A DNA stretch of 64,000 nt from Eubacteriaceae bacterium ES3. Its GTDB lineage: Bacteria > Bacillota > Clostridia > Eubacteriales > Eubacteriaceae. The translations under genes were made by a program, and so were the position numbers. The notes under the pieces were generated by a model, which saw only the letters and a program-made list of their open reading frames with translations, ran no database searches and was not told where the DNA came from. Location: the NCBI GenBank assembly GCA_030586155.1, contig CP130741.1:2598680-2662679 (forward strand), given 5' to 3'. Positions 8,199 to 36,715 of the stretch are shown here, one piece after another. Each line of letters opens with the position of its first letter. Positions within the stretch are counted from its first letter, which is position 1.

Positions 8199-9176
8199 AT
8201 GAAAGCTGTTTTATGGACAAAATACGGCTCACCTGACAGTCTAGAATTAAAAGAAATCACAGAACCCGTACCGAATAAAAACGAAGTCTGCATACGCGTA
8301 TATGCAACGACTGTGGTTGCGGGAGACTGTGAAATGAGAAGCTTGTCATTATCCTTCTTGCTGAGTACGATGGTGCGGCTGATGAACGGCGTAACATCAC
8401 CCAAACGATTCCAACTTCTGGGACAGGAGTTTTCCGGTGAAATAGATTCCATTGGCAGTGACGTTTCACAATTTAAAGTCGGAGATAAAGTTTTCGGAGC
8501 TACCGGTTTCGGACATGGTACCTACTCAGAATACATTTGTCTGCCAGAAGATTCTCCGGACGATGTGTTCATTAAAAACCCTGCTCAACTTTCATTTGAT
8601 ACCGCTGCTGCTTTGGCAGTGGGTTCACTTGAAGCATTGCATTTCCTGCGTCAAGCCAATATTAAAAGACATGACACCATATTAATAAACGGTGCAGGCG
8701 GAAGTATCGGCACAGCCGCCGTTCAATTAGCCAAAATATTCGGTGCCGAGGTTACCGCTGTTGACAAATTGGAAAAGCTACCAATGCTGCAATCCATAGG
8801 TGCCGACCATATAATTGATTATAAGCACAATGATTTTAGCGACAAACATTATGATATCATTTTCGATATTCCTGGAAAAACACCCTACAAACGCTTAATC
8901 CAGTCTTTGAAACCAGGCGGTTTAATCCTGCTTGCCAATCCCAATTTTGCTACAAAGCTTCGTTCTCTTATAGCGCAGATCCTAAGTAATAAAAAAACTT
9001 TTATGTCTACATCCAGGCGTAGCAGGAATGACCTGATCTATATCAGATCTCTGGTGGAAAGCCAAAAATTTTATCCGGTCATCGATCAGTATTTTACCCT
9101 TGAGCAAATGGCCGAAGCCCATCGGTATGTCGATTCAGGACAGAAACAGGGCAATGTCGTGATCACTGTCTGCTAG
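8199..9176 (+). CDS. Zinc-free MDR oxidoreductase (quinone reductase-like)
   Basis: A medium-chain dehydrogenase/reductase of 325 residues, probably an NADPH-dependent quinone or enone reductase. The N-terminal GroES-like domain (MKAVLWTKYGSPDSLELKE) is followed by a Rossmann domain with the nucleotide loop NGAGGSIGTAAVQLAK. The zinc-binding cysteine cluster of alcohol dehydrogenases is absent, which points to the quinone-oxidoreductase branch. GAKVFGATGFGHGTYSEY-like residues (GDKVFGATGFGHG) match the family's substrate pocket region. Single-gene unit with a GAAAGAGAG ribosome binding site. The substrate cannot be told from sequence. Confidence 0.85.
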   Translation: MKAVLWTKYGSPDSLELKEITEPVPNKNEVCIRVYATTVVAGDCEMRSLSLSFLLSTMVRLMNGVTSPKRFQLLGQEFSGEIDSIGSDVSQFKVGDKVFGATGFGHGTYSEYICLPEDSPDDVFIKNPAQLSFDTAAALAVGSLEALHFLRQANIKRHDTILINGAGGSIGTAAVQLAKIFGAEVTAVDKLEKLPMLQSIGADHIIDYKHNDFSDKHYDIIFDIPGKTPYKRLIQSLKPGGLILLANPNFATKLRSLIAQILSNKKTFMSTSRRSRNDLIYIRSLVESQKFYPVIDQYFTLEQMAEAHRYVDSGQKQGNVVITVC

Positions 9177-9245
9177 TAAATCAGTCGTAGCACCACTGTA
9201 CTTCTGACTTCCAAACAATCTGCAATTCAGTTGTCTAGAAATTAC

Positions 9246-9274
9246 TTGACGACCATTATTTTGCATTTTACTAT
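9246..9274 (+). promoter_or_regulatory. Candidate promoter of the uvsE-carotenoid operon
   Basis: TTGACG (9246-9251) and TACTAT (9269-9274) are 17 bases apart. This would start a transcript near 9281 with a leader of about 140 bases before the UV endonuclease gene. Confidence 0.5.
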
Positions 9275-9424
9275 ATAAACAATATTGAATTATAACATAT
9301 AATTAGACTAATCATCCTTTGAGATCAGTAACGGCGAACTGTCAGAAAACAGCTCGAACCTTAGTTGAATACCAAACAGATTTTATTTAATCGTTATACC
9401 ATTTTATGAAAGGTCGTTAGATTT

Positions 9425-10678
9425 ATGAGAATCGGATATTCAGGACTTGCCATTGCCCTTCCAGACAGCGGTATGATAAAAAATAAACTAAATAGTGTTA
9501 ACACTGAACAATTCTTGTCACTGATGGAACATAATTTATCAGCACTTGAAAGGCATATTACTTATAATGCGAAAAACAATATTCCTTTATTTATGATTTC
9601 CTCTGAACTGATTCCTTTTACGCCAGATATTAACCTGGATCTTTGCTGGCAAAAAATATTTTCAGAAAAGCTTTATCAACTTGGTCAAAAGATCTTTCGT
9701 TCAGATATGCGTTTATTTCTACAAGCAAGCCCATATGCTGCGTTGAATTCTAAAGATTCAGACGTTCATTTCAATAACGTTAAACAGCTGAACAACCTGA
9801 CTCAGCTATTTGATAAATTGGGCTTAAGACCCGAAAATAAAATTTTTCTTTATCCAGGCGGTAGTCATGATGATAAGTCCCTATCGATTAAACGCTTCGC
9901 AAAGCGCTGTAGAGACTTAGAACCAACCATTAAAAAGCATTTGATCATTAAAAACGATACTCAATTTTTTAATATTGAAGATGCTTTATCCTTCTCTTCA
10001 ATCGTTGGCATACCAGTTGTTTATGATAATCTGCATAATCTATTAAATACTGCTGACAAAAAAAAGGACGATGCTGACTGGATCAAACTGTGTGCCGATA
10101 GTTGGGGCGAAAATGATGGTCCTCAGACTATCTATTATGGTCAACCCCTTTCTGATAAGCCACCAGGCACACTTTCAGGAGTGCTCCAAATCGCACCCTT
10201 TCTAAAGTTCTATCAAACCCTTCCAGACCAGCAGATTGATATTATCCTCGAAGCAAGTGATAGAAACCTTTCTGTGCTAAAATGTCTGCATTGTACCAAA
10301 GAAATGGGTATTAGCAGCCTGGAAACCGAATGGGCACGTTATAAATACCTGATCCTTGAGCATTCTCCTGATGCTTATCAACAAATCCGACAACTGTTAA
10401 AAAACAAGCATAGCTACCCTGCTCTGAAAATGTACCAGATCATTGAAGATGCTTTAGACTTACCCGTTTCTTCCGGAAATGCAATAAATGCGGCTCAACA
10501 TATTTGGGGATATTTTAAAAACCGAGCTTCTTCATCTGAAGGCAAACATATCCAAACGATACTTGAGCAGTTCTCTGCCGGTAAACTAGGTCTCGATGAG
10601 ATTAAAAAGGAACTATTGAAACTCGCCGAGAAATACCAGGTAAATTATCTTTTAAACGGCTATTATTTCTATCTGTAA
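9425..10678 (+). CDS. uvsE: UV damage endonuclease (UvdE family)
   Basis: UvdE enzymes nick DNA 5' to UV photoproducts and abasic sites, starting light-independent repair. The N-terminus MRIGYSGLAIAL and the segment NNIPLFMISSELIPFTPDI match the UvdE TIM-barrel start. Metal-binding motifs follow, including FLYPGGSHDDKSL with its histidine, HLIIKNDTQFF in the place of the usual IEND, and VVYDNLHN with aspartate and histidine. At 417 residues it is longer than Thermus-type UvsE; the extra C-terminal 110 residues are helical. The expected glutamate of IEND reads KND here, a change worth checking. It precedes the carotenoid genes by 118 bases, suggesting a shared light-stress theme. Confidence 0.85.
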   Translation: MRIGYSGLAIALPDSGMIKNKLNSVNTEQFLSLMEHNLSALERHITYNAKNNIPLFMISSELIPFTPDINLDLCWQKIFSEKLYQLGQKIFRSDMRLFLQASPYAALNSKDSDVHFNNVKQLNNLTQLFDKLGLRPENKIFLYPGGSHDDKSLSIKRFAKRCRDLEPTIKKHLIIKNDTQFFNIEDALSFSSIVGIPVVYDNLHNLLNTADKKKDDADWIKLCADSWGENDGPQTIYYGQPLSDKPPGTLSGVLQIAPFLKFYQTLPDQQIDIILEASDRNLSVLKCLHCTKEMGISSLETEWARYKYLILEHSPDAYQQIRQLLKNKHSYPALKMYQIIEDALDLPVSSGNAINAAQHIWGYFKNRASSSEGKHIQTILEQFSAGKLGLDEIKKELLKLAEKYQVNYLLNGYYFYL

Positions 10679-10796
10679 TGATGCCAAACCGATAAGTATT
10701 TTACAGGCAAAATGTAAAATTCAAGCTATATTTTCTTTAATCATTCATTACAAACATTTTAAAACGATTTTAGCTTGTACATCAAGGAGGTCAAAA

Positions 10797-12374
10797 GTGA
10801 AATATGATGTAGTTGTAGTTGGAGGAGGTTTGGCCGGGTTAACAAGTGCTGCCTATCTGAGTAAATCCGGTGTTAAAACATTGCTTATTGAGAAAAATAA
10901 TAAAACCGGCGGTTTAGTTAATAGCTTCTGGCATCAGGGCTTTTCCTTTGATGCTGGAATTAGAGCTTTTGAAAACTCTGGTATCTTATTTCCAATGCTG
11001 CGAAGTTTAAATATTGATATAGAATTTGTCAAAAACCCGATATCTATAGGTGTCAGGAATCAGTGGACAAAATTGGATCGCAGTAATGCCTTGACTGACT
11101 ACACTAAAATGTTAAAAAATCTATTTCCAAATAACACCGAGGATATTACCCTTATTGCAGAGCAAATAAAAAAGGCAATGCATTATATGAATGTCATTTA
11201 TGGTATTGATAATCCCCTTTTTCTCGATAAGATTAATGACTTAAACTATATTATTAAGACACTGCTGCCTTGGATGCTTCGCTACCAGATTAACATTAGT
11301 CGAGCGGTTAGGCTGGATGAACCTATTTATTCCTACCTCAAACATTTTACTGACAATGATAAGTTAATCGATATAATTGCCCAGCACTTTTTTAAAGCTA
11401 CACCAAGTTTTTTTGCCTTAAGTTACTTTAGTATTTATCAGGACTATCACTATCCGGCCGGTGGAACAGGAACCCTCGCGCAAAAAATCACTGATTACAT
11501 CATTCAGGCAGGCGGCAGTGTCTTATGTGACAACTGCGTTACTGTAATTTATCCGCAAAAACATGAAATAATGCTATCAAATGAAAGCAAAATAAATTAT
11601 CAAAAGCTTATCTGGGCCGCTGATCAGAAAACGCTCTACGAAATTATGCGTGGTAACCAAACTTCCCAAGTTGAAACACAACGGGCAATAGTTGCCCGCA
11701 GCTCCGGTGGAGATTCCATTCTAACGCTTTTCATTGGTGTAAATCTCAGTAAAGAGTATTTTTTAAACAGCTGTGGCCCTCATGCTTTTTATACGCCTGA
11801 TACATTAGGCCTTTCTGCATTACCCTGCTGGCAGCAAAGTTCAAAAAAAAGCCCTGACGAGTTGCTTAATTGGCTAAACAATTTTTTTGAAAGAACAACT
11901 TACGAAATTTCATGCCCAGCCATTCATGACGACACTCTTGCACCGCCTGGAAAAACCGGACTAATAATCAGTACATTAATCGATTATAATATGGTTAAGT
12001 TTTTTTCTGATATCGGACAATATGAGTTTTTCAAGCAACATTGTATTAGATTAATCACGAAAGTTCTTGAACAATCCTTATTTAAAAACTTAAGGGAACG
12101 GATAATATTTTCTCTCTGTTCTACCCCTTTAACAATTGAACGGGAAACAAAAAATACAGAGGGTGCTATAACAGGTTGGGCATTTACTAACCATCAAATT
12201 CCCGCTGAAAACCGTTTACCTAAAATCGCCAATTCTATTTTAACGCCAATAAACGATATTTATCAATGTGGACAATGGACTTTTAGTCCATCGGGTCTGC
12301 CAATTTCAATACTCACCGGAAAATTGGCAGCCGATGCAGCGACTAAGAAGCTTATGGGTAAACATCATGATTAG
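10797..12374 (+). CDS. Phytoene-desaturase-like FAD oxidoreductase (CrtI/CrtN/CrtP family)
   Basis: A 525-residue flavoprotein of the carotenoid desaturase/oxidase family. The N-terminal dinucleotide loop VVVGGGLAGLTSAAYLSKSG and the following IEKNNKTGGLVNSF are diagnostic. The C-terminal FAD-binding motif is YQCGQWTFSPSGLPISILTG. The GTG start at 10797 has a perfect AAGGAGG. Its stop overlaps the next gene by 8 bases. The neighbours are CrtQ- and CrtO-like, so it may act as desaturase or as terminal oxidase (CrtP role) on a C30 carotenoid. In Staphylococcus aureus these genes act in staphyloxanthin synthesis; no phytoene/dehydrosqualene synthase (CrtM) is in this window. Confidence 0.8.
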   Translation: MKYDVVVVGGGLAGLTSAAYLSKSGVKTLLIEKNNKTGGLVNSFWHQGFSFDAGIRAFENSGILFPMLRSLNIDIEFVKNPISIGVRNQWTKLDRSNALTDYTKMLKNLFPNNTEDITLIAEQIKKAMHYMNVIYGIDNPLFLDKINDLNYIIKTLLPWMLRYQINISRAVRLDEPIYSYLKHFTDNDKLIDIIAQHFFKATPSFFALSYFSIYQDYHYPAGGTGTLAQKITDYIIQAGGSVLCDNCVTVIYPQKHEIMLSNESKINYQKLIWAADQKTLYEIMRGNQTSQVETQRAIVARSSGGDSILTLFIGVNLSKEYFLNSCGPHAFYTPDTLGLSALPCWQQSSKKSPDELLNWLNNFFERTTYEISCPAIHDDTLAPPGKTGLIISTLIDYNMVKFFSDIGQYEFFKQHCIRLITKVLEQSLFKNLRERIIFSLCSTPLTIERETKNTEGAITGWAFTNHQIPAENRLPKIANSILTPINDIYQCGQWTFSPSGLPISILTGKLAADAATKKLMGKHHD

Positions 12375-13464
12375 ACCTATCATTGAATTCTTAATTGCCA
12401 TCGGCGGGTTGGCCGTAACGCCTATTCTCTTTTACCACTTCCCAAAATTACCACCCAAAAAAAGCAGCCATATTGAATTCCCACTGCTTTCCATTATTAT
12501 ACCAGCACGAAATGAAGAACATTCGTTACCCTTACTACTTAAGGATCTTCAAGATCAATCCTTTGCTCTGTTTGAAATTATTTGTGTCGATGACAACTCC
12601 ACTGACTTAACGGCACATACAGCCAAAAACTTTTCAGTGCCTGTCCTTTCTTTACATAATAAGCCCGATGACTGGGCAGGCAAGTGCTGGGCTTGCCAAA
12701 ATGGCGCTAATGCCGCCAGCGGTGATTTACTTTTATTCATCGATGCTGATGTCCGCCTTGGTCAAGACGCCATCTATCGACTGTTACAAGCATATTGCGA
12801 TTGCAACATCCCCATTTCAGTTCAGCCTTTTCATATCCTTGAAAAGAATTATGAGCAACTTTCAATGTTTTTTAATTTTATCCAGCTCGCTGCTAATGGG
12901 ACAACACTAAAAAATCCCAGTGCAACAGGTCTTTACGGGCCAATCATTCTAATTTCTCGATCTGATTATAAGAAAATCGGTGGACATGAAAGTGTCAAAC
13001 AAAGTGTTGTAGAAGATATGGCTCTAGCTAACCGCCTCAAAGAATCAAACATTCCCTATAAAGTTTTTGTCGGAGATCATGAGCTGGCTTTTCGAATGTA
13101 TGGGACTGGGATTAAAAATCTATTTCAGGGCTGGACCAAAAACATAGCTACTGGCGCAGCCAATACCCCTATTGACTTGCTGATAATGGTGTTTTTGTGG
13201 ACGACTTCGGTCATTTCCACCCCTGTCCATATTTTGTTATCAGCAATTAGCGCTAAATATTTTTTAATGCTGATTTATACTCCGTTGTATATTACATGGG
13301 TATTTTTATTGAATTTCTACGCAAAAAAAATTGGTCTGTTTAAGCTCTGGGCAATCATTTTCTTTCCCATTCCGCTGGCTACCTTTATTCTCATATTTGC
13401 TATATCCGGTTTTAAAAAAATCTTAGGTTTCAAAGTCACCTGGAAAGAACGTTCAATTAAATAG
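12367..13464 (+). CDS. CrtQ-like glycosyltransferase family 2, membrane-bound
   Basis: Start at 12367 (MIRPIIEFLIAIGG) because it overlaps the previous stop as ATGATTAG; the longer open frame from 12268 is out of register with any ribosome binding site. The GT2 core is clear: LLSIIIPARNEEHSL, then IICVDDNSTD and DLLLFIDADVRLG (the DxD metal site), with a later QGWTKN motif. There is one N-terminal and several C-terminal membrane segments. The family includes 4,4'-diaponeurosporenoate glycosyltransferase, which attaches glucose to a carotenoid acid. Position between a desaturase and a CrtO-like acyltransferase supports that role. Confidence 0.75.
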   Translation: MIRPIIEFLIAIGGLAVTPILFYHFPKLPPKKSSHIEFPLLSIIIPARNEEHSLPLLLKDLQDQSFALFEIICVDDNSTDLTAHTAKNFSVPVLSLHNKPDDWAGKCWACQNGANAASGDLLLFIDADVRLGQDAIYRLLQAYCDCNIPISVQPFHILEKNYEQLSMFFNFIQLAANGTTLKNPSATGLYGPIILISRSDYKKIGGHESVKQSVVEDMALANRLKESNIPYKVFVGDHELAFRMYGTGIKNLFQGWTKNIATGAANTPIDLLIMVFLWTTSVISTPVHILLSAISAKYFLMLIYTPLYITWVFLLNFYAKKIGLFKLWAIIFFPIPLATFILIFAISGFKKILGFKVTWKERSIK

Positions 13465-13473
13465 GAGATTCAT

Positions 13474-13965
13474 ATGCAAATAATTTTCTTACCACCCAAC
13501 CTGACTATTGCACTTTGTTTTATTTTATGGCCAGTGATACAAATCACTGCCGCAATTATATGTTTTAACTTACCTGATCAACTTTTTTATCCGACAAACT
13601 TCTTTTTTAAGTCTTATAGTTTTGAAAATTACGGTTATTTATATAATCAGCTTTTTATGGTCAGAAAATGGAAACACCTCCTGCCGGATGGTGGAATGGT
13701 TTGGAAAAAAAAAGGATTCAAAAAAAAACACCTCGATAATTTTTCTAAAGGAAATCTCAACCGATTTCTTATTGAATCTGCACGAGGTGAACTGACTCAT
13801 TGGCTGGCTATTTTGCCATTTTGGATTTTCGGACTATTTACTCCAGCTTATGTTGTCTGGATTATGCTCATTTACTCTTTAGCTGTCAATTTACCATGTA
13901 TTATCGTTCAACGCTATAATCGCCCACGCATTTTGCGGCTACTTAACGGAAAATATCACAACTAA
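13474..13965 (+). CDS. CrtO-like glycosyl-carotenoid acyltransferase
   Basis: A 163-residue membrane protein resembling the acyltransferase that esterifies glycosyl-4,4'-diaponeurosporenoate in staphyloxanthin synthesis. Features are WKHLLPDGGMVWKKKGF, NRFLIESARGELTHW (with the conserved E-x3-H region) and the C-terminal QRYNRPRILRLL, with hydrophobic helices at both ends. AGGAG precedes the ATG, 9 bases after the glycosyltransferase gene. Last gene of the operon. Confidence 0.8.
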   Translation: MQIIFLPPNLTIALCFILWPVIQITAAIICFNLPDQLFYPTNFFFKSYSFENYGYLYNQLFMVRKWKHLLPDGGMVWKKKGFKKKHLDNFSKGNLNRFLIESARGELTHWLAILPFWIFGLFTPAYVVWIMLIYSLAVNLPCIIVQRYNRPRILRLLNGKYHN

Positions 13966-14436
13966 TCTTCAGAGACCATTATTAAGTATTACTTGTCAGG
14001 AATCACAGAATCGTTCAGGTTCTTTTCTATATATCTTCGCATTCACTTTATTTATCAAGACTGCTTTTCAATGCTTATATTAACTCATCACCTACAACTG
14101 ATGTCCAGGCTTTCAGAGACAAAATCAAAACCTTCGACAGCAACAAGGCCCAAATCCTTTTTCCTTTTACAATAATTTTCATAGCTCTCCTGCTCCATAT
14201 ATTGCATAAAAAAAGTAACGTCTCCGTTACCTGATGATTATATGCATAAAAATATTGCACATCCTTTCCAAGTACGGGTGGCACATTCGTTTCCTCCTGT
14301 ACCAATAGATTCCCAGTTCGTAGACTAATTCCTTAGAAACTGAGAATTCGGATGTTTGTTACCTAATATATGTTAATATGTTTAAAAGAAGTGTTGCGAA
14401 AACTTTTAACTACAGACTAACATATCTCTGCTTTCT
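13966..14436. other. Gene-free stretch, possible relic
   Basis: About 470 bases with no gene I can support. On the minus strand between about 14330 and 14080 several short pieces in different frames look protein-like (for example GNLLVQEETNVPPVLGK and KDLGLVAVEGFDFVSES). They are broken by stops and shifts, so a decayed gene is possible but not identifiable. Confidence 0.3.
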
Positions 14437-27567: not shown

Positions 27568-29010
27568 TTACTTATTATATATAATATATGGAACAAGCAT
27601 ATCTTCATAACAAATTCGGCCGTGTGTGCCCCCACCTTCTATTTCGTGCAACCCATGATCAGCCGTAATAATAACCGTTCCCGAAAAACTCTCAACCAAT
27701 GTTTCAACCATTTGATCGATTTGTAGAATTTGCTCAAAATTTTCTTGTGAATAAGGCCCATAAGTCGTTGCATCATCGTCGATGCTATGGAAGTGAGTAA
27801 AAATAAGCTCTTTGTTTTCACCAATAGCAGTTTGTGTATTCTTAAACACATTGCCATCCTGAATTTCTTCAGTGACCGAAAGAACCGGTTCAACTGAAGT
27901 ATTAAGCATCTTTGTATCGCCTTCTATATATGCTGGACTTTTACCCATTTGGATAGCTTTTTCAAAAATATCCTGGCCGTTAAAATCCATTGTTTCACGA
28001 TCGTGAACACCGTTGATATCCGGATTCTCGCCAGTTAGCATTGCTGCCAACCCAACCGGGGAAATAGGTGGATAAACAACCAGCGCTTTCTGAACTGGCA
28101 ATGTAGACATGAAAGGCAGCATATTTTTTTCTTGAGCTGCATTAAACATCTCCCAACCTAATCCATCCAGCTCGATAACCAAAACATTATTTCCTTTTTC
28201 CAGCTGATAGGCTGTATCAGATGCAACATCAGTAATTGAAAACAGGGGCGGATCACTTAAAACTCCAACCACATCTTCAATAACTGTTTTATCCGATGCC
28301 GTGTAACTTAGAGCCGTATCAGTGATTTCAAAATAACTTTCATCGGTAACTTTGTCAAAACAGGAACTGCCATCTTGTCCAAAAACAACAATCTCTTTTT
28401 CAAAAGTCAATAAATCAGTGGGGAGTATCATTCGATGCGTGGTGTACACCGTCACCTCCTGATTATTAATTTCCGATTGACCTTCGAATACGCGTTTCTC
28501 AAAATAGCCCTGGAGAAATAAATTCCCTACTGTCGTACTGCGGAAACCGCTTTGGTCTTCTATTCCAATGGCCATCTCATCGCTGTCCAAATCGGTTGTA
28601 ATCACCACTATATTTCTGAGATTCTTAACCTGACTGGAAATCGGATGATTTTCTGTAATAATCTCCCAGTCATACTGGCTGCTATAGCTGATATAACAAT
28701 CAGACAAATCCTGACCGCTGATTTTAGAGCTTAGTCCATCCTGGCCGATAAACAATAGATCATATTCATCAGCTCTTGGTTTTGCTTGGGCTATTACATC
28801 TTCAAGGGCAATCGCGGTATAATTTTGTCCATCTTTTGTAACCTTTTGGATCGGATAATCAAGTATTTTATTGACCGTTAATGGCGCCTCGATATCACCC
28901 AGCACTTCAAAACTGTATTCAAGTTCAATCCCCAGTGGCTGATACTGGCAACCAGATAGCAGGGTGCTGATAAAAAGCACTGCTAACAATATTTGCGCCC
29001 ATCGCTTCAT
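27568..29010 (-). CDS. Lipoprotein: operon-specific domain fused to a phosphodiesterase
   Basis: A lipoprotein of about 480 residues, start at 29010 (MKRWAQILLAVLFISTLLSG, lipobox LLSGC). The first half (ALEDVIAQAK, then FIGQDGLSSKISGQDL) is a copy of the small domain shared by the other exported proteins of this operon. The second half is an alkaline-phosphatase-superfamily phosphodiesterase: VLVIELDGLGWEMF with the first metal aspartate, PPISPVGLAAMLTGENP with the likely nucleophile serine, THFHSIDDDATTYGP and VIITADHGLHE with metal ligands. It acts outside the membrane, perhaps hydrolysing a nucleotide or cofactor pyrophosphate such as FAD or a pterin dinucleotide before uptake; that substrate is inference. 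Last gene of the operon. Confidence 0.8.
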   Translation of the reverse strand: MKRWAQILLAVLFISTLLSGCQYQPLGIELEYSFEVLGDIEAPLTVNKILDYPIQKVTKDGQNYTAIALEDVIAQAKPRADEYDLLFIGQDGLSSKISGQDLSDCYISYSSQYDWEIITENHPISSQVKNLRNIVVITTDLDSDEMAIGIEDQSGFRSTTVGNLFLQGYFEKRVFEGQSEINNQEVTVYTTHRMILPTDLLTFEKEIVVFGQDGSSCFDKVTDESYFEITDTALSYTASDKTVIEDVVGVLSDPPLFSITDVASDTAYQLEKGNNVLVIELDGLGWEMFNAAQEKNMLPFMSTLPVQKALVVYPPISPVGLAAMLTGENPDINGVHDRETMDFNGQDIFEKAIQMGKSPAYIEGDTKMLNTSVEPVLSVTEEIQDGNVFKNTQTAIGENKELIFTHFHSIDDDATTYGPYSQENFEQILQIDQMVETLVESFSGTVIITADHGLHEIEGGGTHGRICYEDMLVPYIIYNK

Positions 29011-29011
29011 G

Positions 29012-30364
29012 CTACACCTGAGGTTTAATGTATAATAAACCTTTAACTGACTGTGCCTGATCCTGCCCGTCAAAGACACAGTTTACACCATCATCAGAAA
29101 GAACTAAAATTCCTTTTTTAAGTTCTTCAAGACTTATTTCCACCGAATAACCATCTGCCCCTGTTAAAACATACTGTTCTGACTGGACAACGCTAAGATC
29201 TGTAAAAATGGTATCAATCAATACGCCACTATCTCCATTAAGTGTCGTTTCGCCGTATTTATTTTGGGCTTCTTTCACACTTAAAATCGTTGTATCACCA
29301 ACTTTGTTATAGAGCATATCTTTCATCCGCATTCCTTCAGGTAGATCAGGACCAATAAACATGGGTGCATTCTCACCGGTTATCTTAATATATTGGCTGG
29401 AATAAGTGTCAAATTCTTCGTTTCGGGACCACCCATCCGCTCCGGCTACTTCCACCGTATTCGCATTAAGATTACCGGTTTGTTCTAATAATTGGGCCGT
29501 TGTAATCGCCTGATCAATTGAATCATAATACTTGTAATCTTCAATATCGCATAAAGTCACGGCTGTTTCCAGCAATGCCAGATTTGCTGTTGCGATGTTT
29601 TCAACCGCTCCCTTAATTTCTATCTGATTTAAAAATTTAACCCAGTACATTGCCCGTTCTTCGGGAATGACGGTTCGCAGATCAACAGCCTCACCATTAA
29701 TTTCATAAGCAATAATGACATCCCGTGTTGTTAACACTTCTTTTGGTACTTCGATAGCATAGCCATCCGTTGCGGTTAAAACAATTGCATCAAAGTTTTT
29801 TTGTGATGCTCCATATTCGGCCAGAATGTCTTCCAGTTTAACACCTTTCCCGGTTGTTGGCGTTTCTGTCCCGCTGGCATCCACTGAAATCGCATCAAAC
29901 TCTACCGGAGTCATGGCTTTTATCTCATCTCCGGTAATTATTTTATCCTCCGCTAAACCAGTGATCAAAATTTCCTGTCCATCTGTTGATTCTGCCACTG
30001 ATGTATAGCCTAATTCAACCGGATCAACACCAGCATCGGTCACACACTGAGCAACAGCTCCGATAATCCCTCGGCTGGTCAGGGTTGCCCCACTAACTGC
30101 ATCGACATCCAAACGCTGGCTTTCGAGAATCAGACCCGGCATTCCTTCAACTGCCTTTGTCGCATATTCCAGATCATCCTGATGATTAACCACTTCGATT
30201 GATTCAATTTTATCGTCAGTAAAAGTTACTTCTACTCGAATAGGGCCATTTTTTCCCTGTGCTGATCCCACATAGCTTCCGGCTTCATAAGCAATCTGAT
30301 TTGAACAGGCCGTTAGTATCATCAATCCCAAGGCTGCAACAATCATAAATATAGTCTTTTTCAT
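29012..30364 (-). CDS. FMN-binding lipoprotein with two copies of the shared domain
   Basis: A 450-residue lipoprotein (lipobox ILTAC, Cys20). Residues about 28-115 form an FMN-binding domain with DAVSGATLTSRGI, the ApbE target motif in which the second threonine (about residue 96) carries covalent FMN. Two copies of the operon's small domain follow (VKLEDILAEYGA ... TATDGYAIEVPKE and MRMKDMLYNK ... TGADGYSVEISLEE). The start at 30364 is favoured by AGGGAGAG. Such flavinylated lipoproteins carry electrons outside the cell membrane. No ApbE transferase gene is present in the window. It sits between two other proteins of the same family. Confidence 0.85.
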   Translation of the reverse strand: MKKTIFMIVAALGLMILTACSNQIAYEAGSYVGSAQGKNGPIRVEVTFTDDKIESIEVVNHQDDLEYATKAVEGMPGLILESQRLDVDAVSGATLTSRGIIGAVAQCVTDAGVDPVELGYTSVAESTDGQEILITGLAEDKIITGDEIKAMTPVEFDAISVDASGTETPTTGKGVKLEDILAEYGASQKNFDAIVLTATDGYAIEVPKEVLTTRDVIIAYEINGEAVDLRTVIPEERAMYWVKFLNQIEIKGAVENIATANLALLETAVTLCDIEDYKYYDSIDQAITTAQLLEQTGNLNANTVEVAGADGWSRNEEFDTYSSQYIKITGENAPMFIGPDLPEGMRMKDMLYNKVGDTTILSVKEAQNKYGETTLNGDSGVLIDTIFTDLSVVQSEQYVLTGADGYSVEISLEELKKGILVLSDDGVNCVFDGQDQAQSVKGLLYIKPQV

Positions 30365-30388
30365 TTCCACTCTCCCTCGTCTTATTAT

Positions 30389-30938: not shown

Positions 30939-31667
30939 TCAGACTGCAATTGAAACGTAAAAAATACTTATTAAAACCGAAGCAATCATCACCGCATAAT
31001 CATAAGGTTTTAAGGTCAACACCAAATATTCCACTCGCCGATCATAGGCGCCAAAAGCTCTGGCTTCCATTGCAATCGAAATTTCTTCAGCGTGTTTAAG
31101 AGACGACATAATAATCGGGGTAATCAGGTAAACATAAATTTGTGTTTTTTTGCCGATTGGGATCTTTTTTAAATCAACCCCCTTAAGCTGAAGGGCCACG
31201 ATTGAATCCTGAAATTCTTCGGTAAAAATCGGAATAAATCGAAGCGATAAGGCCGTCATAAAGGCAATTTTATAAGGTACTTTCCACTGAACCAGAGCCT
31301 GAATGGTATCCCGATAATTAGAGGTTGACATAATCACACCTGATGTCATAATCACAACCATTCGAATAAAGGTTTGAACACCCAGATTAATCCCTTTTTG
31401 GGTCAAAATCGGTATACTGCCAATCTCCAAAATGATATTTGTATCAGGCGTAAAAATACTTTGAATTAGTGAAATCGTCAAAAGCAAGATTAGAATCCTT
31501 CGATATCGCCTTATTAAAGCCAGTAATTTTACGCCCATTAAAAGTGCACAAGCAATGGCGATTAAACCGATCCCGATTACAAAATAAAGATTATTGACAA
31601 TTAAAACCATAGAGGTAAGACATAGCACTAAAATAATTTTTGCTCTCGGATCCAGTTTAGCAGCCAT
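30939..31667 (-). CDS. ecfT: ECF transporter transmembrane coupling protein EcfT
   Basis: The scaffold that links the two ECF ATPases to the substrate-binding S component in energy-coupling-factor importers. The protein has several hydrophobic helices and the EcfT coupling helix motif ISIAMEARAFGAYDRR, with the AR-A type arginine motif that contacts the ATPases. LDPRAKIILVLCLT at the start is typical of the CbiQ/EcfT family. Start at 31667, overlapping the ATPase stop by 11 bases with GGAAGGA upstream. Gene order S-A-A-T is that of a dedicated (group I) ECF module. Confidence 0.88.
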   Translation of the reverse strand: MAAKLDPRAKIILVLCLTSMVLIVNNLYFVIGIGLIAIACALLMGVKLLALIRRYRRILILLLTISLIQSIFTPDTNIILEIGSIPILTQKGINLGVQTFIRMVVIMTSGVIMSTSNYRDTIQALVQWKVPYKIAFMTALSLRFIPIFTEEFQDSIVALQLKGVDLKKIPIGKKTQIYVYLITPIIMSSLKHAEEISIAMEARAFGAYDRRVEYLVLTLKPYDYAVMIASVLISIFYVSIAV

Positions 31668-32322
31668 TCTCAACAATCCTTCCATCTTCCATTTTAATCA
31701 CACGATCAGCCTGATCTTTTATAAATTGCTGATCATGGGAAATTACTGCAATACCAGTCCCATCATTTTTAAGCTCCTGAAGAAACAGATACAATTCATT
31801 TTTTCGATCCCGATCAAGTCCAGAAGACGGTTCATCAAGGATTAGATAACCCGGTTGCTGAGCTAATACTGCCGCCAGCACTAAACGCTGTTTTTCACCT
31901 CTGCTTAAACGCATCGGTACTTTATCTTTTAAATGCGTCAGTTTAAAACACTCGAGCAGAGCTTCAGCCGTTTTAAGCGCCACTTTCTTTTCGACCCCTT
32001 TTATTTCCAGAGGAAAGATTATTTCGTCCAAAACAGTGACTGCAAAAAGCTGACGATCCGGATTCTGAAAAACATATCCGATCTTTGATCCCCGCTGCCA
32101 CAACTTTAAATCGTTACCATCTACATTATCAATAGTTATCTTCCCGGAATCAGGAACAAATATTCCCATAACCAGCTTACCCAGAGTCGTTTTCCCAGAG
32201 CCGTTATTACCTGAAATACAGGTTATTTCTCCACGTTTCAGACTTAGATCAATTTCTTTTAAGCCAAATTTTCCTTTAGGATATGTATAGGTGATTTTTT
32301 CAAGTCTAATGTAATCTTCCAT
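31657..32322 (-). CDS. ecfA: ECF transporter ATPase (first)
   Basis: A 221-residue ABC ATPase. Walker A is GNNGSGKTT, followed by the Q-loop GYVFQNPDRQLFAVTV that is typical of ECF ATPases. The signature is LSRGEKQRLVLAAVLAQQ and Walker B is YLILDEPSSGLD. Start at 32322 (MEDYIRLEKI) because GAGAGG lies six bases upstream. Paired with the next ATPase, it forms the heterodimeric motor of the importer. Confidence 0.9.
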   Translation of the reverse strand: MEDYIRLEKITYTYPKGKFGLKEIDLSLKRGEITCISGNNGSGKTTLGKLVMGIFVPDSGKITIDNVDGNDLKLWQRGSKIGYVFQNPDRQLFAVTVLDEIIFPLEIKGVEKKVALKTAEALLECFKLTHLKDKVPMRLSRGEKQRLVLAAVLAQQPGYLILDEPSSGLDRDRKNELYLFLQELKNDGTGIAVISHDQQFIKDQADRVIKMEDGRIVENGC

Positions 32323-32354
32323 ATCCATCCTCTCAGTCCCAATAATCTTTCACT

Positions 32355-33044
32355 TTATAAAGTCCCTGAGTATGGACTCAGTCGTCCATTTTTTAAAACC
32401 AAAATACGATCTGCAATTTCCATATTGTCAAAATCATGCTCCGCCATCAAAATTGAATGACCCTCTTTCTTTAATTGCAAAATTACCTTTTTTATTCTTT
32501 CACACCCCTCATAATCAATCTGTGAAAGTGCTTCGTCAAATAACAAAATTTTTGGTTTCATACTCAAAACCGACGCAAGGGCAATTAACTGTTTTTGACC
32601 ACCCGAAAGATTATTAGGAGATTCATATCGGTACCGACTCATCCCTACTAAGTCAAGCATCTCTTCTATCCGTTTGCCTGTCTCTTGGCGCTCAATACAT
32701 AGATTTTCCGGCCCAAAAGCGACTTCTGCTTCAATGGTTGGTGAAAACAACTGATTATCGGGCTCCTGAAAGACAATCCCCACATTTTTAGCTAATTGAG
32801 GCGTATCCAAAGAAAAAATGGACTGTCCTGAGAGTTCAATATGTCCTTCGATTTGTCCCTTAATCGTTTTAGGAATAATTCCGGCAAGAATATGACAAAG
32901 CGTACTTTTTCCGCAACCGGAATGACCGGCAATAGCCAGAATTTCATTTTCTTCTAAGTCAAAACTTAAATCATGTAAGATATTCGTTTTTTCTCCAGCA
33001 TATCTAAAATATAATTCCCGAACTTCAATTACATTGATGATAAT
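32355..33044 (-). CDS. ecfA: ECF transporter ATPase (second), start disrupted
   Basis: An ABC ATPase with Walker A GHSGCGKST, Q-loop VGIVFQEPDNQLFSPTI, signature LSGGQKQLIALASVL and Walker B ILLFDEALSQID. The frame is open from the stop at 32355 up to a TAG at 33056, but this stretch contains no ATG or GTG at the expected place; the first codons read I-I-I-N-V-I-E-V. Upstream in the other frame lies GTG GAA CAG GAA (33070) leading into six G. One more G would join them as MEQENSKGG followed by the ATPase. Either an ATT/ATC start, a frameshift in the G-run, or a sequencing error. The coordinates give the open frame without that correction. Confidence 0.8.
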   Translation of the reverse strand: MIINVIEVRELYFRYAGEKTNILHDLSFDLEENEILAIAGHSGCGKSTLCHILAGIIPKTIKGQIEGHIELSGQSIFSLDTPQLAKNVGIVFQEPDNQLFSPTIEAEVAFGPENLCIERQETGKRIEEMLDLVGMSRYRYESPNNLSGGQKQLIALASVLSMKPKILLFDEALSQIDYEGCERIKKVILQLKKEGHSILMAEHDFDNMEIADRILVLKNGRLSPYSGTL

Positions 33045-33075
33045 CCCCCCTTGCTATTTTCCTGTTCCACCCGTC

Positions 33076-33699
33076 CTAGTCCTTTTTTGCGATCTCATTT
33101 TCTTCCTCAGGATCACCACTTAATCGAATATCATCTTCCGCCACAATTTCCTGATCTTTAAAATAGCCAAATTTTTTCAACTGACTTGCGATAGCATAGG
33201 CCAGCAAACCTCCCAATCCACCGGATAAAGAGGCCAGGCACAATGTCAGTAAGAGGGGAACTAGGGGTAATCTGAAAAACACAAAGTTTACACCAAAGCT
33301 GCCCAGAACATTGGCTATAACCCCTGCCCCAAAGCTAGCACCTTTTGTATATTTATATTTTCCCAGAATCAAATAAAGCAGTTCTACGCCAATCCCCGGC
33401 ATCAGATAGGTAACGATACTCATAATTCCATGCGAACCCATTGTTCCTGTAATAATAACTAAAATAGTCTGTATTAGACAGACCAGTAATGCTGCCCCGG
33501 TTTTTCTGACCAGCAATGCCGCCAGAACAATGAACAGCATATAGATTCCTCCGGAAATTGATCCTCCCGGAATGAAAAGCGGCCCGGTAATGATATGAAC
33601 CAGGGGAACTAAGACCACTTTTACGGCAATTCCCAGTGCCGCCATCATTGAAATAGTCACTAAATCCAATAAAGTCAGCTTTTCAAATACCTTTTTCAT
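33076..33699 (-). CDS. ECF transporter substrate-binding component (S component), unknown vitamin
   Basis: A 207-residue membrane protein with about six helices, beginning LTLLDLVTISMMAALGIAVK, with FIPGGSISGGIYMLFIVLAA and GTMGSHGIMSIVTYLMPGIG. This pattern resembles the YkoE-like S components. S components fix the substrate of ECF importers. YkoE relatives take up thiamine precursors, but the neighbours (MobB-like GTPase, flavinylated lipoprotein) point instead to a pterin- or flavin-type cofactor; the substrate is not decided by sequence. The C-terminal 30 residues are acidic. AAGGAGGT precedes the ATG, and the gene overlaps the kinase-like gene by 17 bases. Confidence 0.8.
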   Translation of the reverse strand: MKKVFEKLTLLDLVTISMMAALGIAVKVVLVPLVHIITGPLFIPGGSISGGIYMLFIVLAALLVRKTGAALLVCLIQTILVIITGTMGSHGIMSIVTYLMPGIGVELLYLILGKYKYTKGASFGAGVIANVLGSFGVNFVFFRLPLVPLLLTLCLASLSGGLGGLLAYAIASQLKKFGYFKDQEIVAEDDIRLSGDPEEENEIAKKD

Positions 33700-34384
33700 A
33701 TCCAGACCTCCTTTTTTTGATGTTTGCCAGCTCTTTTTCCCTGGCCCTTATCACACTCTCAAATTCGACATCAATATTTGCTTTAATATATATTTCCAAA
33801 TCCTTGACCAAGGTCTTCTTCCATTTCGTATTGCTTGGTGCATAGGTTAAAATAAACGCTAAAAACCGCCCAAAATCCACAGAGAAATCTTCTTCTCTCG
33901 TATCTTCAAAGTCAATCGCAACGACACTATCCTGGTATAGTAAAAAATTTCGAAGATTAATGTCATAAAAGGCCAGTCCAGTCTCTACATGAAAAGATTC
34001 CAACAAGTCAATCACTTTTGTAAAGGGTAACAGGATATCTTGAGCAATAAAAGCACTATTCTTAAACACTATTTCTTCATTTTGCGGCTCTACTTCTTCT
34101 AAAAATTCGCAAAGCGTTCTGGCATTAATATATTCGTAGAGCAATACATTTTGATTGCGACCATAAAATTTGACTGTCTTAATTTTTTTATCATTTAAAG
34201 CATTAAGCGTTTTTAATTCCTGTTCCAGCCCTTTAAGACTTGCAAATTCTTTCATAATCGCGCGACAATCCCAGTCGTCTTTTACCAGGTGAATTAAAGA
34301 AACCTGATTTTTTTTACTGTTATACTTTTTCAGTGTTGAATATGATCCGGATTCGTAAGCCTGCATCACTGTTTTATTCATCAT
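33683..34384 (-). CDS. Small kinase-like protein
   Basis: A 233-residue protein with a reduced protein-kinase-like fold. The catalytic loop reads LAFYDINLRNFLL (like HxDxxxxN, with Asp and Asn), and VVAIDFEDTREED stands where DFG would be. An N-terminal VSLIHLVKDDWDCRAIMKEF could hold the ATP-binding lysine, and VLLYEYINARTLCEFLEE is the hinge. It resembles the Kdo/RIO/phosphotransferase side of the superfamily more than Ser/Thr kinases. Overlaps both neighbours (MobB-like upstream, S component downstream), so tightly co-expressed. It may phosphorylate the imported small molecule; this is inference. Confidence 0.65.
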   Translation of the reverse strand: MMNKTVMQAYESGSYSTLKKYNSKKNQVSLIHLVKDDWDCRAIMKEFASLKGLEQELKTLNALNDKKIKTVKFYGRNQNVLLYEYINARTLCEFLEEVEPQNEEIVFKNSAFIAQDILLPFTKVIDLLESFHVETGLAFYDINLRNFLLYQDSVVAIDFEDTREEDFSVDFGRFLAFILTYAPSNTKWKKTLVKDLEIYIKANIDVEFESVIRAREKELANIKKRRSGYEKGI

Positions 34385-35135
34385 TATTTAAGTTTCCGAT
34401 ATGGATCTTAATATCGGCATCTGTCTGGTAACCTTCCAGTTCTGACACCACACTAAGGACAGCATTTCGGATCAGTTTCTGCACAAAAGGCACCATCACA
34501 ACATTTTGATCGTTGATTTTTAAACTTACCCCATCATTTTTGAGCGGGCAATCACTTCGTTTGACTTCCTTCGCTACAATTTTTTGACAGAAACCGGCAC
34601 AATCGGTATTGCAAAGGCCGCAGCATTTCTTTGAATAACCTGGCAGTAATTCAAAAGCGTTTTCCTGTACCAAATCTACCAGATAATTGGGATCCTTTAG
34701 GCAATTTACAATTTTAATCCCCTTGTATTCATCGTAGTTTTCTGCCAGTACTCCAGAAAAGGCAAAAACCGTTTCGTCCCATCGTTCGTCAAGACCTTTA
34801 AAATCGTGACCGGTCACAATTTTAGGGATTGCCGGATCATTAACCCCTTCTAAAATCACATAGTCATAATCATAATGTGAAAGCACCTGGCGAATCGGCA
34901 GTTTTTCCTGATATAAAATATCTGTTTCATACATTCCCAAAGCCGTCACCAACTGGGATCCAGCCTGCCTATGGCGAAAGGTATTGGTTCCGGCCTGATC
35001 GATTTCAAATTCTTCATAATGAATTTCTTTTACCGAACCAACCGAGTAGCCCCGCTTTCTTAAGCCACCAATAATTGTTTCAACCACTGTCGTTTTTCCT
35101 GAAAGGGTCAAGCCCCTGACAGATATTACTTTCAT
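34374..35135 (-). CDS. MobB-like GTPase with cysteine-rich C-terminal part
   Basis: The N-terminal 170 residues match MobB, the GTP-binding helper of molybdopterin-dinucleotide synthesis: Walker A GLTLSGKTT at residues 8-16, GSVKEIHYEEFEIDQAGTNT and YDYVILEGVNDPAIPKIV. A cysteine-rich stretch follows (KKCCGLCNTDCAGFC and a later DCPL), able to hold an Fe-S cluster or zinc, then a short C-terminal domain (KIHIGNLNNDE end). No MobA is nearby. Start at 35135, 24 bases after the previous gene. Its place in an importer operon suggests a role in handling a pterin-type cofactor, which is inference. Confidence 0.8.
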   Translation of the reverse strand: MKVISVRGLTLSGKTTVVETIIGGLRKRGYSVGSVKEIHYEEFEIDQAGTNTFRHRQAGSQLVTALGMYETDILYQEKLPIRQVLSHYDYDYVILEGVNDPAIPKIVTGHDFKGLDERWDETVFAFSGVLAENYDEYKGIKIVNCLKDPNYLVDLVQENAFELLPGYSKKCCGLCNTDCAGFCQKIVAKEVKRSDCPLKNDGVSLKINDQNVVMVPFVQKLIRNAVLSVVSELEGYQTDADIKIHIGNLNNDE

Positions 35136-35159: not shown

Positions 35160-35681
35160 TTATTCAAAGCTAATCTCCATTAAGAATTTGCAATTTCTTA
35201 AACTAAAGGTTTCACCTGTGATAACAATTTCCATTGGGCCTGTTCCTCCCGAAGATTTGTCGGTATTCTCAATCCCATCACGCTCATAGATTAAATAAAC
35301 CTTATCAGCCTCTATTTCTTCCGTAGTACCAGCCGAAACATATCCGTCAAGGGCTTTGTAGGTAACCGCCTGATAGGATTCGTAGTCAAAACCTGCCCTA
35401 TCAAGAGCATCTTTTAACAAGACGCCGCCGAAAACAACATCTTCCTGGCCTGTACTGGTATTTAATCCTTCATCGATCAAAACCTTTGGCATTGCCTTTA
35501 TATCTTCTAACTGCAACTGGGCCAAAGTAAGATCACCGACGGTTATAATTACAGTTTCTTGCCCTAAGGAGGCTAAGCGCTCTTCCGTCTGATTTTTGTT
35601 AATTCCAATCAGTACTGCCGATGAAATCGCCAAAACAAGAATCACAATCGGCAGAATCCATTTTTTCTTATTTTTGTCCAT
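35160..35681 (-). CDS. Membrane-anchored protein of the shared-domain family
   Basis: A 173-residue protein with one N-terminal membrane anchor (KKWILPIVILVLAISSAVLI) and an outside domain. It has the operon pattern VVFGGVLLKDALDRAGFD, KALDGYVSAGTTEEIEADK and the closing strand FLMEISFE. Start at 35681 (MDKNKKKW) with AAGGT upstream; longer starts are less likely. Related by eye to the proteins at 30389-30895 and 35905-36447. Follows a partial terminator, so it may be made at a lower level than the first gene. Confidence 0.7.
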   Translation of the reverse strand: MDKNKKKWILPIVILVLAISSAVLIGINKNQTEERLASLGQETVIITVGDLTLAQLQLEDIKAMPKVLIDEGLNTSTGQEDVVFGGVLLKDALDRAGFDYESYQAVTYKALDGYVSAGTTEEIEADKVYLIYERDGIENTDKSSGGTGPMEIVITGETFSLRNCKFLMEISFE

Positions 35682-35860
35682 CACCGTTACCTTTTCTCCA
35701 TCATGTCTCATTTTTATACAAAGACGTTTCACCTCATTTAAAAATAGGCTCTACCTGCTAAAATTCTGTTCTTCTTTTAGCTAAACAACTCGTTTAAACC
35801 ACAGTTGCAGATAAAAGAGAACTTGAAAATTTTTATGCTCGATAAAGCCTTTTAAGACAC

Positions 35861-35904: not shown

Positions 35905-36447
35905 TTATTTTACTACAGTCATTTTTGAAAGCCCCTGAACCCAAGAGCCTGCACCTTTGCTTCCAGTCACAACACTGATTAATGCTTCACCATCGAGCGA
36001 AACCGTCAATAATGAATCCTCAGCTTCAACTGTTGCTGGCTCATAATCTTTAGTATATCCGTCTGAAGCTTCCATTGTAATAGCAGTATAATCAGTAATC
36101 CCCAGAGTTGCAATGACATCTTTTAATAAATATCCCTCAAAGGTTCCGCCTGATTCTGTTCCATCTTTTTTGGTTAAGATAATAGTCTGCTCTACCAGTG
36201 AAAGATCTGCAAGGTCTGCCTGAGTAAACTCAGTCATGCCATCAACACCCTCCAGGGCAATTGTAAATTCAGCTGTACTTGCCTGACTCGAATCAGAGCT
36301 TTCCTCTGCTGCAGTTGTATCATCAGCTGTTGTTTCTGTTGTTGCAGTCGTGTCATCACTGGCCGTTTCTGCATCTTGTGAACTACATCCGGCAAAAGAA
36401 AATACTAATGCCATTACCATTACCAATACTAATAAATACCTTTTCAT
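35905..36447 (-). CDS. Abundant-type lipoprotein of the shared-domain family (first gene)
   Basis: A 180-residue lipoprotein: MKRYLLVLVMVMALVFSFAG with lipobox FAGC, then a Ser/Thr/Asp-rich linker of about 45 residues, then the shared domain (TFEGYLLKDVIATLGITDY, MEASDGYTKDYEPATVE, LLTVSLDGEALISVV). Start at 36447 because GGAGG lies 7 bases upstream; the longer open frame runs into the leader RNA. First gene of the operon, directly behind the candidate riboswitch and followed by a terminator-like hairpin, an arrangement usual for binding lipoproteins needed in excess over their transporter. Confidence 0.75.
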   Translation of the reverse strand: MKRYLLVLVMVMALVFSFAGCSSQDAETASDDTTATTETTADDTTAAEESSDSSQASTAEFTIALEGVDGMTEFTQADLADLSLVEQTIILTKKDGTESGGTFEGYLLKDVIATLGITDYTAITMEASDGYTKDYEPATVEAEDSLLTVSLDGEALISVVTGSKGAGSWVQGLSKMTVVK

Positions 36448-36505: not shown

Positions 36506-36535
36506 AAAAAATAAAAAAGTTTAGACAAGCTAAAC
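36506..36535 (-). terminator. Leader terminator upstream of the lipoprotein/ECF operon
   Basis: On the minus strand GTTTAG, a five-base loop and CTAAAC are followed by TTTTTTATTTTTT. It lies before the first gene, so it must act as an attenuator. The sequence TCTAAAC in its 3' arm (36525-36519) is identical to the 5' strand of the aptamer-closing stem. Confidence 0.8.
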
Positions 36536-36554
36536 CCACAAATTATTCCTCAGA

Positions 36555-36641
36555 TCTAAACGTTTACCTTTCCAATGTGGGAGATCCTGCTGTTTCCGGC
36601 AAAACCCTAACGTTTTACTTTTCATGCCTGTTAGGTTTAGA
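36555..36641 (-). promoter_or_regulatory. Candidate riboswitch aptamer in the operon leader
   Basis: A closing stem TCTAAAC (36641-36635) with GTTTAGA (36561-36555) encloses about 70 bases. Inside, CCTAAC (36635-36630) and GTTAGG (36611-36606) can pair. An 11-base inverted repeat, GAAAAGTAAAA with TTTTACTTTTC (36623-36613 and 36650-36640), competes with or forms a pseudoknot over this stem. The 3' closing strand can pair either with its aptamer partner or with the identical sequence in the terminator, giving a classic on/off switch. I could not match it to a known class from memory (TPP, cobalamin, FMN, Moco, THF, preQ1 checked by consensus). Confidence 0.65.
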
Positions 36642-36686
36642 AAAGTAAAATTCAGTAATTATTCATTCCATATTCAATTAATATTT

Positions 36687-36715
36687 ATTATATTAATTCA
36701 TAACTATCATGTCAA
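36687..36715 (-). promoter_or_regulatory. Consensus promoter of the lipoprotein/ECF operon
   Basis: On the minus strand TTGACA (36715-36710) and TATAAT (36692-36687) are separated by exactly 17 bases. The transcript would start near 36680 and run through the aptamer and attenuator before the first ATG at 36447. Confidence 0.9.

Follow-up and report, generated by a model that had tools for sequence, protein, structure and literature searches.

An operon-like run of 11 minus-strand genes (36447 down to 27568) was found in a 64,000-nucleotide stretch of contig CP130741.1 from Eubacteriaceae bacterium ES3 (the window), behind a riboswitch of the Moco/Tuco class. This P3-lacking Moco/Tuco riboswitch probably represses an operon for the capture and import of pre-formed Moco/Tuco or a close molybdopterin form. 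The operon is likely to be a riboswitch-controlled importer of the Mo/W cofactor, and the cofactor would be a new substrate for ECF transporters. The riboswitch class itself is known; the gene set under its control looks new.

Identification of the leader RNA

The leader and the operon lie on the minus strand. The leader comprised the following features (positions of the window).

36687-36715, minus strand: sigma-70 promoter, TTGACA-17-TATAAT, 12/12 consensus matches
36551-36667, minus strand: Moco/Tuco riboswitch aptamer, P3-lacking subtype, RF01055 at 57.3 bits (cut-off 36)
36555-36561, minus strand: GTTTAGA, putatively used both by the outer extension of P1 and by the antiterminator (sequence, constrained folds)
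36506-36535, minus strand: attenuator, A/U-rich hairpin and T tract (sequence and folds; unflagged by the terminator scan)

The promoter and the leader of about 230 bases described in an earlier note on this DNA are both real. A promoter scan returned TTGACA-17-TATAAT at 36715-36687, and approximately 233 bases separate the ATG at 36447 from a presumed transcription start near 36680, a guess from the -10 box. The earlier note had proposed a new riboswitch class, for which the visible alternative pairings and nothing besides could be cited, and had named a match to a known class as the finding that would speak against it. The search against Rfam models that it called for gave RF01055 (Moco/Tuco riboswitch) on the minus strand at 36667-36551 with 57.3 bits, and homologous leaders likewise matched well over the cut-off of 36. 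The claim of a new class therefore fails, and its probability is considered negligible. The E-value over the whole window was 4.1e-11, which places the structured leader far above chance, and the alignment was full-length (model positions 1-135).

The aptamer is, with near certainty, a member of the known class RF01055. Stem P2 with its tetraloop receptor and stem P4 with its GAAA tetraloop were both present, with the CUAA and GGAAAC segments aligned to RF01055. The P3 columns of the model were mostly deleted, which assigns the RNA to the P3-lacking subtype, still a member of the class. An 11-base inverted repeat (TTTTACTTTTC/GAAAAGTAAAA) noted previously is real and constitutes P2. The pseudoknot suggested with it was rejected: it is missing from the RF01055 consensus, and the CUAA/UUAG complementarity is missing in several relatives' leaders. 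Family membership supports, in kind, Moco/Tuco as the predicted ligand class; the P3-lacking subtype was associated with the tungsten cofactor by Regulski et al. 2008 (PMC2408646, in the part available). Four RF01055 matches were found in the organism's own genome, two of them inside the window.

The covariation test over leaders of homologous operons, also proposed in the earlier note, used 28 leaders from 27 sources, namely 26 homologous loci of the ECF S component gene (S) plus the window's own (L003); L056 contributed two leaders. For 18 of 24 predicted pairs, one or more of the 28 leaders had both bases replaced with pairing retained, in an alignment fitted to the analysis' own model, itself built partly from the same leaders. 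P2 and P4 both covaried. The P3 region was reduced to a few bases in 27/28 leaders, and L091 has P3.

Predicted switching mechanism

The earlier note had read TCTAAAC both as the 5' strand of an aptamer-closing stem and as the 3' arm of a terminator, with GTTTAGA able to pair with either. These letters are present on the minus strand (TCTAAAC at 36641-36635 and 36525-36519; GTTTAGA at 36561-36555) and the switching logic held up; the 5' partner did not, the P1 extension taking the place of the first TCTAAAC. The closing stem is P1 (UUACU/GGUAA). The CUAA of the first TCTAAAC (36641-36635) falls in the P2 region of the aptamer and supplies no closing-stem strand. When P1 was imposed on the fold, UGAAU (36665-36661) extended the stem outward by pairing with GUUUA of the GTTTAGA segment, which is therefore common to P1 and the antiterminator. 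A closing stem formed by TCTAAAC/GTTTAGA was tried and rejected; it breaks P2 and gave -30.6 kcal/mol, 6.6 worse than P1 plus the terminator (-37.2 kcal/mol).

The attenuator consists of the hairpin GTTTAG-cttgt-CTAAAC followed by T6AT6 (36535-36506). This A/U-rich hairpin was not flagged by the terminator scan. Constrained folding gave -37.2 kcal/mol for P1 with the attenuator hairpin, -37.0 kcal/mol for GTTTAGA paired to the hairpin's TCTAAAC, and -31.4 kcal/mol for P1 and the antiterminator together. The unconstrained minimum of the leader was -39.1 kcal/mol, with the hairpin formed and the aptamer not. The modelled competition between P1 and the antiterminator fits a repressing switch, by small energy margins. 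Promoter, aptamer, hairpin and T tract were shared by the four nearest homologs (G021, G023, G030, G035); the antiterminator letters differed.

From these pairings, repression rather than activation by the leader RNA is inferred. When the cofactor is plentiful it would bind the aptamer, P1 would close, the P1 extension would hold GTTTAGA, and the attenuator hairpin would stop transcription. When the cofactor is scarce, GTTTAGA would pair with the hairpin's TCTAAAC and transcription would continue. The previous suggestion, a repressing transcriptional riboswitch through which the ligand of a vitamin-type importer controls the importer genes behind it, is upheld in kind by the covariation, by the Moco/Tuco family and by an importer that lies beside Moco genes and occurs in genomes without detectable Moco synthesis; its exact strands were partly wrong.

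Genes of the operon

Gene families were assigned by profile, alignment and fold matches. Lipoprotein and anchor assignments were made by visual reading of N-termini.

35905-36447, minus strand: SUOX-fold lipoprotein 1; PF00174 19.5 bits, under the cut-off of 24; in the A2 alignment
35160-35732, minus strand: SUOX-fold secreted protein 2, membrane-anchored, with an uncertain start codon; PF00174 16.9 bits, under cut-off; in the A2 alignment
34374-35135, minus strand: MobB-like protein with a cysteine-rich tail; PF03205 68.2 bits; PRK14494-type NCBIfam models below their cut-offs
33683-34384, minus strand: Rio/Bud32/APH-like kinase; conserved K45, E56, D141-x-N-x-x-N-F and D158; profile and fold matches, Pfam below cut-off
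33076-33699, minus strand: ECF S component, PF09819 (YkoE-type); 55.9 bits, cut-off 25.2
32355-33053, minus strand: ECF ATPase 1; PF00005 105.3 bits; open frame, no ATG/GTG/TTG before the Walker A motif
31657-32328, minus strand: ECF ATPase 2; PF00005 103.5 bits; ECF_ATPase models
30939-31685, minus strand: ECF T component, CbiQ type; PF02361 97.1 bits
30389-30895, minus strand: SUOX-fold lipoprotein 3; PF00174 22.2 bits, just under the cut-off of 24; AlphaFold2 model with PruR/SUOX fold matches
29012-30370, minus strand: FMN_bind and SUOX-domain lipoprotein; PF04205 55.6 and PF00174 39.1 bits, both above cut-off
27568-29079, minus strand: type I phosphodiesterase-like lipoprotein; PF01663 56.5 bits

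The operon thus holds a complete ECF set of S component (PF09819), two ATPases (PF00005) and T component (PF02361). In ECF ATPase 1 the Walker A motif is intact; translation may begin at a rare codon (ATT or ATC), or the sequence may contain a small error. The K, E, D-x-N-x-x-N-F and D residues of the kinase are conserved, and its model (pLDDT 92.7) resembled Rio1, PRPK and methylthioribose kinase.

SUOX-like proteins

The run encodes four secreted proteins assigned to the sulfite-oxidase (SUOX) fold. PF00174 exceeded its cut-off in the FMN_bind protein only, and the other three SUOX-like proteins scored 16.9 to 22.2 bits vs 24. Thirty SUOX-like proteins, chosen by hand from 23 sources and aligned, were checked against Pfam, and all 30 matched PF00174 at E <=0.01. 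The SUOX-like profile matched the pterin-binding protein PruR (7kom, E 1.8e-8) and sulfite oxidases; the iterated SUOX and phosphodiesterase (PDE) profiles grew over three rounds, so distant members are possible. For a SUOX-like protein modelled with AlphaFold2 (pLDDT 86.5, pTM 0.76) the best Foldseek match was again PruR 7kom (E 3.7e-7). Invariant residues of the alignment were G83 and D109. Just 1/30 proteins had a cysteine in the segment preceding the T-G motif, which argues against enzyme activity; that this is the place expected for the metal-ligating cysteine was read from the alignment, and the position lies beyond what was aligned in the sulfite-oxidase matches. Outside the lipobox, no alignment column had cysteine in more than 8/30.

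PruR (PDB 7kom, 7kos; PMC13259868, in the part available) is likewise a secreted protein of about 170 residues with a SUOX fold and no conserved Mo-ligating cysteine. The SUOX-like proteins here differ in that they adjoin an importer and occur in several copies per operon, whereas PruR pairs with a DcpA-type regulator; no DcpA or sensor-kinase gene was found within the run 36447-27568. According to the same part of PMC13259868, PruR binds small pterins and is probably too small for Moco.

Recurrence of the cluster in Bacillota

The S gene was detected in 6/67 genomes of the order (E <=1e-5), 5/19 genomes of the genus, and 47/398 genomes of the phylum (E <=1e-12). Clusters related to the operon recur in Bacillota. 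Same-strand neighbours within 8 kb of S were counted over 55 loci: SUOX-like 42, EcfA 41, EcfT 39, MobB 35, kinase 25 and PDE 21. A Moco riboswitch lay at most 6 kb upstream of S in 25/55 loci and in one (L076) of three further S loci (L076, L082, L094), giving 26/58. PDE-type or kinase neighbours were missing in various combinations from 29/55 loci (34 without PDE, 30 without kinase); the proposed roles of the PDE and the kinase are therefore the weakest of the proposal. Distant S homologs often lacked the neighbours counted here and may differ in substrate.

Further Mo-related genes were found at individual loci. MoeA lies between MobB and the kinase in L053 and, by its MoeA_N match, in the equivalent gene of L059. 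A MobA-like gene lies two genes after S in L091. In L056 the cluster is directly preceded by a binding-protein-dependent transporter that has a riboswitch of its own in front, and in G447 MoaA, MoaC and MoeA lie 11-16 kb upstream of the cluster. FMN_bind domains were present in or beside the cluster, and ApbE flavin transferases were nearby in L062 and L064.

Separately, a molybdopterin-oxidoreductase gene, a P3-bearing Moco riboswitch, and S, SUOX-like and MobA-like genes stand side by side in L091 8893-10647 with G312:C2:9890-11167; G312 lacks MoaA/MoaC/MoeA. In three genomes, riboswitches far upstream of S were seen before long genes of SUOX-like type, whose products reach about 1,200 residues.

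L115 9086-9204 (minus strand), L119 6024-6142 (plus strand), L116 2559-8498 (plus strand): riboswitch/long SUOX-like loci in G081, G200, G396

Carriers without detectable Moco synthesis

Together, the 47 carriers from the phylum-wide sample and 5 additional ones from the order gave 52 S-bearing genomes. MoaC was found in 33 of these, the MoaA C-terminal domain in 34 and MoeA in 33; MoaE, a poor marker here (10/52), was not used. MoaA, MoaC and MoeA were all undetected in 18/52, spread over ten families. Completeness reaches 90% or more in thirteen of these and is below 90% in five (G266, G363, G406, G415, G459); G161 and G377 are single contigs. G291, with no MoaC match, was kept outside the 18 as it has MoeA and a MoaA near a contig end, and was taken as an assembly gap; G060 lacks MoeA and was also left outside, having MoaA and MoaC. 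The window's own organism has all three.

Genes for Moco/Tuco-type enzymes were present in 18/18 of these genomes (PF00384 in 14, AFOR_N in 15, MoCoBD_2 in 10). PF00384 also includes proteins without Moco. An in-frame TGA, expected of selenocysteine formate dehydrogenases, was found in nine of the 14 PF00384 genomes. For G377 and G420 the enzyme evidence is one AFOR_N gene each.

A riboswitch lay within 2.3 kb upstream of S in 13/18 (G075, G161, G225, G250, G275, G312, G317, G348, G377, G394, G415, G420, G459). RF01055 was confirmed by Rfam in 12/12 submitted loci of those 13, and in 8/13 the S-linked riboswitch was the sole RF01055 match counted in the genome. In the other five (G090, G102, G266, G363, G406) no riboswitch was found upstream of S: G102 and G406 have one before a SUOX-like gene elsewhere, G363 has one approximately 9 kb downstream of S, and none was found in G090 or G266. 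A sensor of the cofactor has been kept, before a transporter, where cofactor synthesis is undetected, and cofactor import is the best explanation. Since MoeA was likewise undetected, the metal should already be in place in the form taken up. Cells without detectable MoaA/MoaC/MoeA probably import the cofactor, apparently metal-loaded.

Among the 398 phylum genomes, searched for the riboswitch with stricter filters, 42 had riboswitch and S, 5 S only, 178 riboswitch only and 173 neither (p 2e-7, phylogeny ignored). S was present in 17/29 riboswitch genomes without MoaC vs 25/191 of the other riboswitch genomes (p 3e-7, phylogeny ignored; one of 264 MoaC matches was below cut-off). A rule that riboswitch genomes without MoaC always carry S was rejected, as 17/29 do and 12 do not (S at E 1e-12). 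These twelve, with the riboswitch and neither MoaC nor S, are G170, G175, G219, G262, G265, G315, G337, G346, G383, G385, G400 and G422; possible reasons are a different importer, a pathway that has diverged, or gaps in the sequence.

Proposed function and alternatives

In the proposed pathway, the secreted SUOX-fold proteins would bind the pterin cofactor outside the cell and the phosphodiesterase-like lipoprotein may trim its nucleotide forms. The ECF transporter (S, two A, T) would carry the cofactor in; inside, the kinase and the MobB-like protein may add a phosphate back to it, bind it or convert it. A more specific version is favoured slightly over its negation: dedicated bacterial import and salvage of the mature, metal-loaded Mo/W cofactor under Tuco-type riboswitch control, with cysteine-less SUOX receptors outside, an ECF carrier, trimming by the phosphodiesterase outside and restoration of the phosphate by the Rio/Bud32-like kinase inside. 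Lineages that appear to have lost MoaA/MoaC/MoeA would then keep their W and Mo enzymes as cofactor auxotrophs.

The importer might instead take up a compound that still lacks the metal, either a precursor or a product of trimming (molybdopterin, cPMP or a dephosphorylated form), and the metal would be added inside. The presence of the Mo insertase MoeA inside the L053 cluster and in the equivalent gene of L059 speaks for this, as does the recurrence of phosphodiesterase (21/55) and kinase (25/55) in the cluster. Metal loading by the known route would, however, be impossible in the 18/52 carriers without detectable MoeA, MoaA and MoaC, since MoeA is missing there, and a metal-free substrate is considered rather unlikely. 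Import of another vitamin-like compound (thiamine, HMP as by YkoE, or another pterin), with only an indirect riboswitch link to Moco demand, is less probable still. The operon shares with YkoE-type ECF transporters (thiamine/HMP) the S-component Pfam family, PF09819, to which 24/25 aligned members belong, and has its own A, A and T genes; the sole PDB relative of the S component by sequence is YkoE, an HMP/thiamine permease (5edl, E 0.01-0.03), and small pterins are bound by PruR (PMC13259868, in the part available). The similarity to YkoE is nevertheless marginal (E 0.01 by sequence, 0.029 by profile), and Rfam reported no TPP riboswitch in the window or in the homologous loci scanned, where the Moco riboswitch was found instead; a thiamine transporter is therefore not favoured. 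The neighbours are moreover Moco-related (MobB, MoeA, MobA-like and SUOX-fold proteins), and import of another vitamin would leave the Moco/Tuco enzymes of 18 genomes without a cofactor source.

A role of the operon in maturing or serving redox proteins outside the cell (SUOX-domain flavoproteins), with the ECF transporter supplying flavin or a similar compound, is very improbable. Such a role would suit the FMN_bind domains and the ApbE genes near L062 and L064, but the riboswitch is of the Moco and not the FMN type, the S family is not of the riboflavin type by Pfam, only the one SUOX-like protein in 30 has the cysteine before the T-G motif, and the carriers without MoaA/MoaC/MoeA would be unexplained.

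Relation to known systems

The leader shares with the RF01055 riboswitch of Regulski et al. 2008 (PMC2408646) the covariance model, the GAAA tetraloop, the P2/P4 architecture and the P3-lacking subtype. Its hairpin-type expression platform is also described there for some members. The targets given in the available part of that article are Moco synthesis, molybdate transport and Moco-using enzymes, and none of them is a cofactor importer. Two P3-lacking RNAs precede 'putative sulphite oxidase' genes in S. wolfei (same source); these are possibly the same SUOX-like genes.

Moco is usually regarded as something every cell has to synthesize for itself. A search of the open-licence PMC literature gave, among the matches listed, no bacterial Moco importer by title or abstract. 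In their available parts, the categories of PMC3766115 include Moco synthesis and Mo/W transport and no Moco uptake, PMC13259868 states that the passage of pterins across membranes is unknown, and PMC12282271 raises a possible role of some T11SS outer-membrane proteins in taking up cobalamin or molybdopterin. Dietary Moco use in C. elegans (PMC9793310) likewise involves pre-formed external Moco, and how Moco is harvested and crosses membranes is a question posed in that work. That system is from an animal and no carrier is identified in the part available, whereas the operon here offers candidate transporter genes. Queuosine salvage by QrtT/QueK/QueL under a PreQ1 riboswitch (PMC11477304, in the part available) similarly combines a riboswitch, an ECF S component and trimming enzymes, and differs in ligand, families and chemistry. 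If cofactor import is correct, the operon provides a concrete transporter, receptor and regulator for Moco uptake. Anaerobes that are auxotrophic for Moco and rely on neighbouring cells would then be expected, and an S-component family and the PruR-like proteins of Bacillota would acquire a function.

Other features of the window

The second RF01055 match of the window lies at 14245-14365 on the minus strand (64.5 bits) and is followed by a terminator-like hairpin at 14232-14213. Only short same-strand ORFs come after it, before genes on the opposite strand. It may be an orphan or antisense-acting riboswitch; Moco examples of the latter are given in PMC9943018 (part available). On the plus strand at 8199-13965, putative oxidoreductase, carotenoid-desaturase-like, glycosyltransferase and acyltransferase-like genes were noted from translations read by eye.
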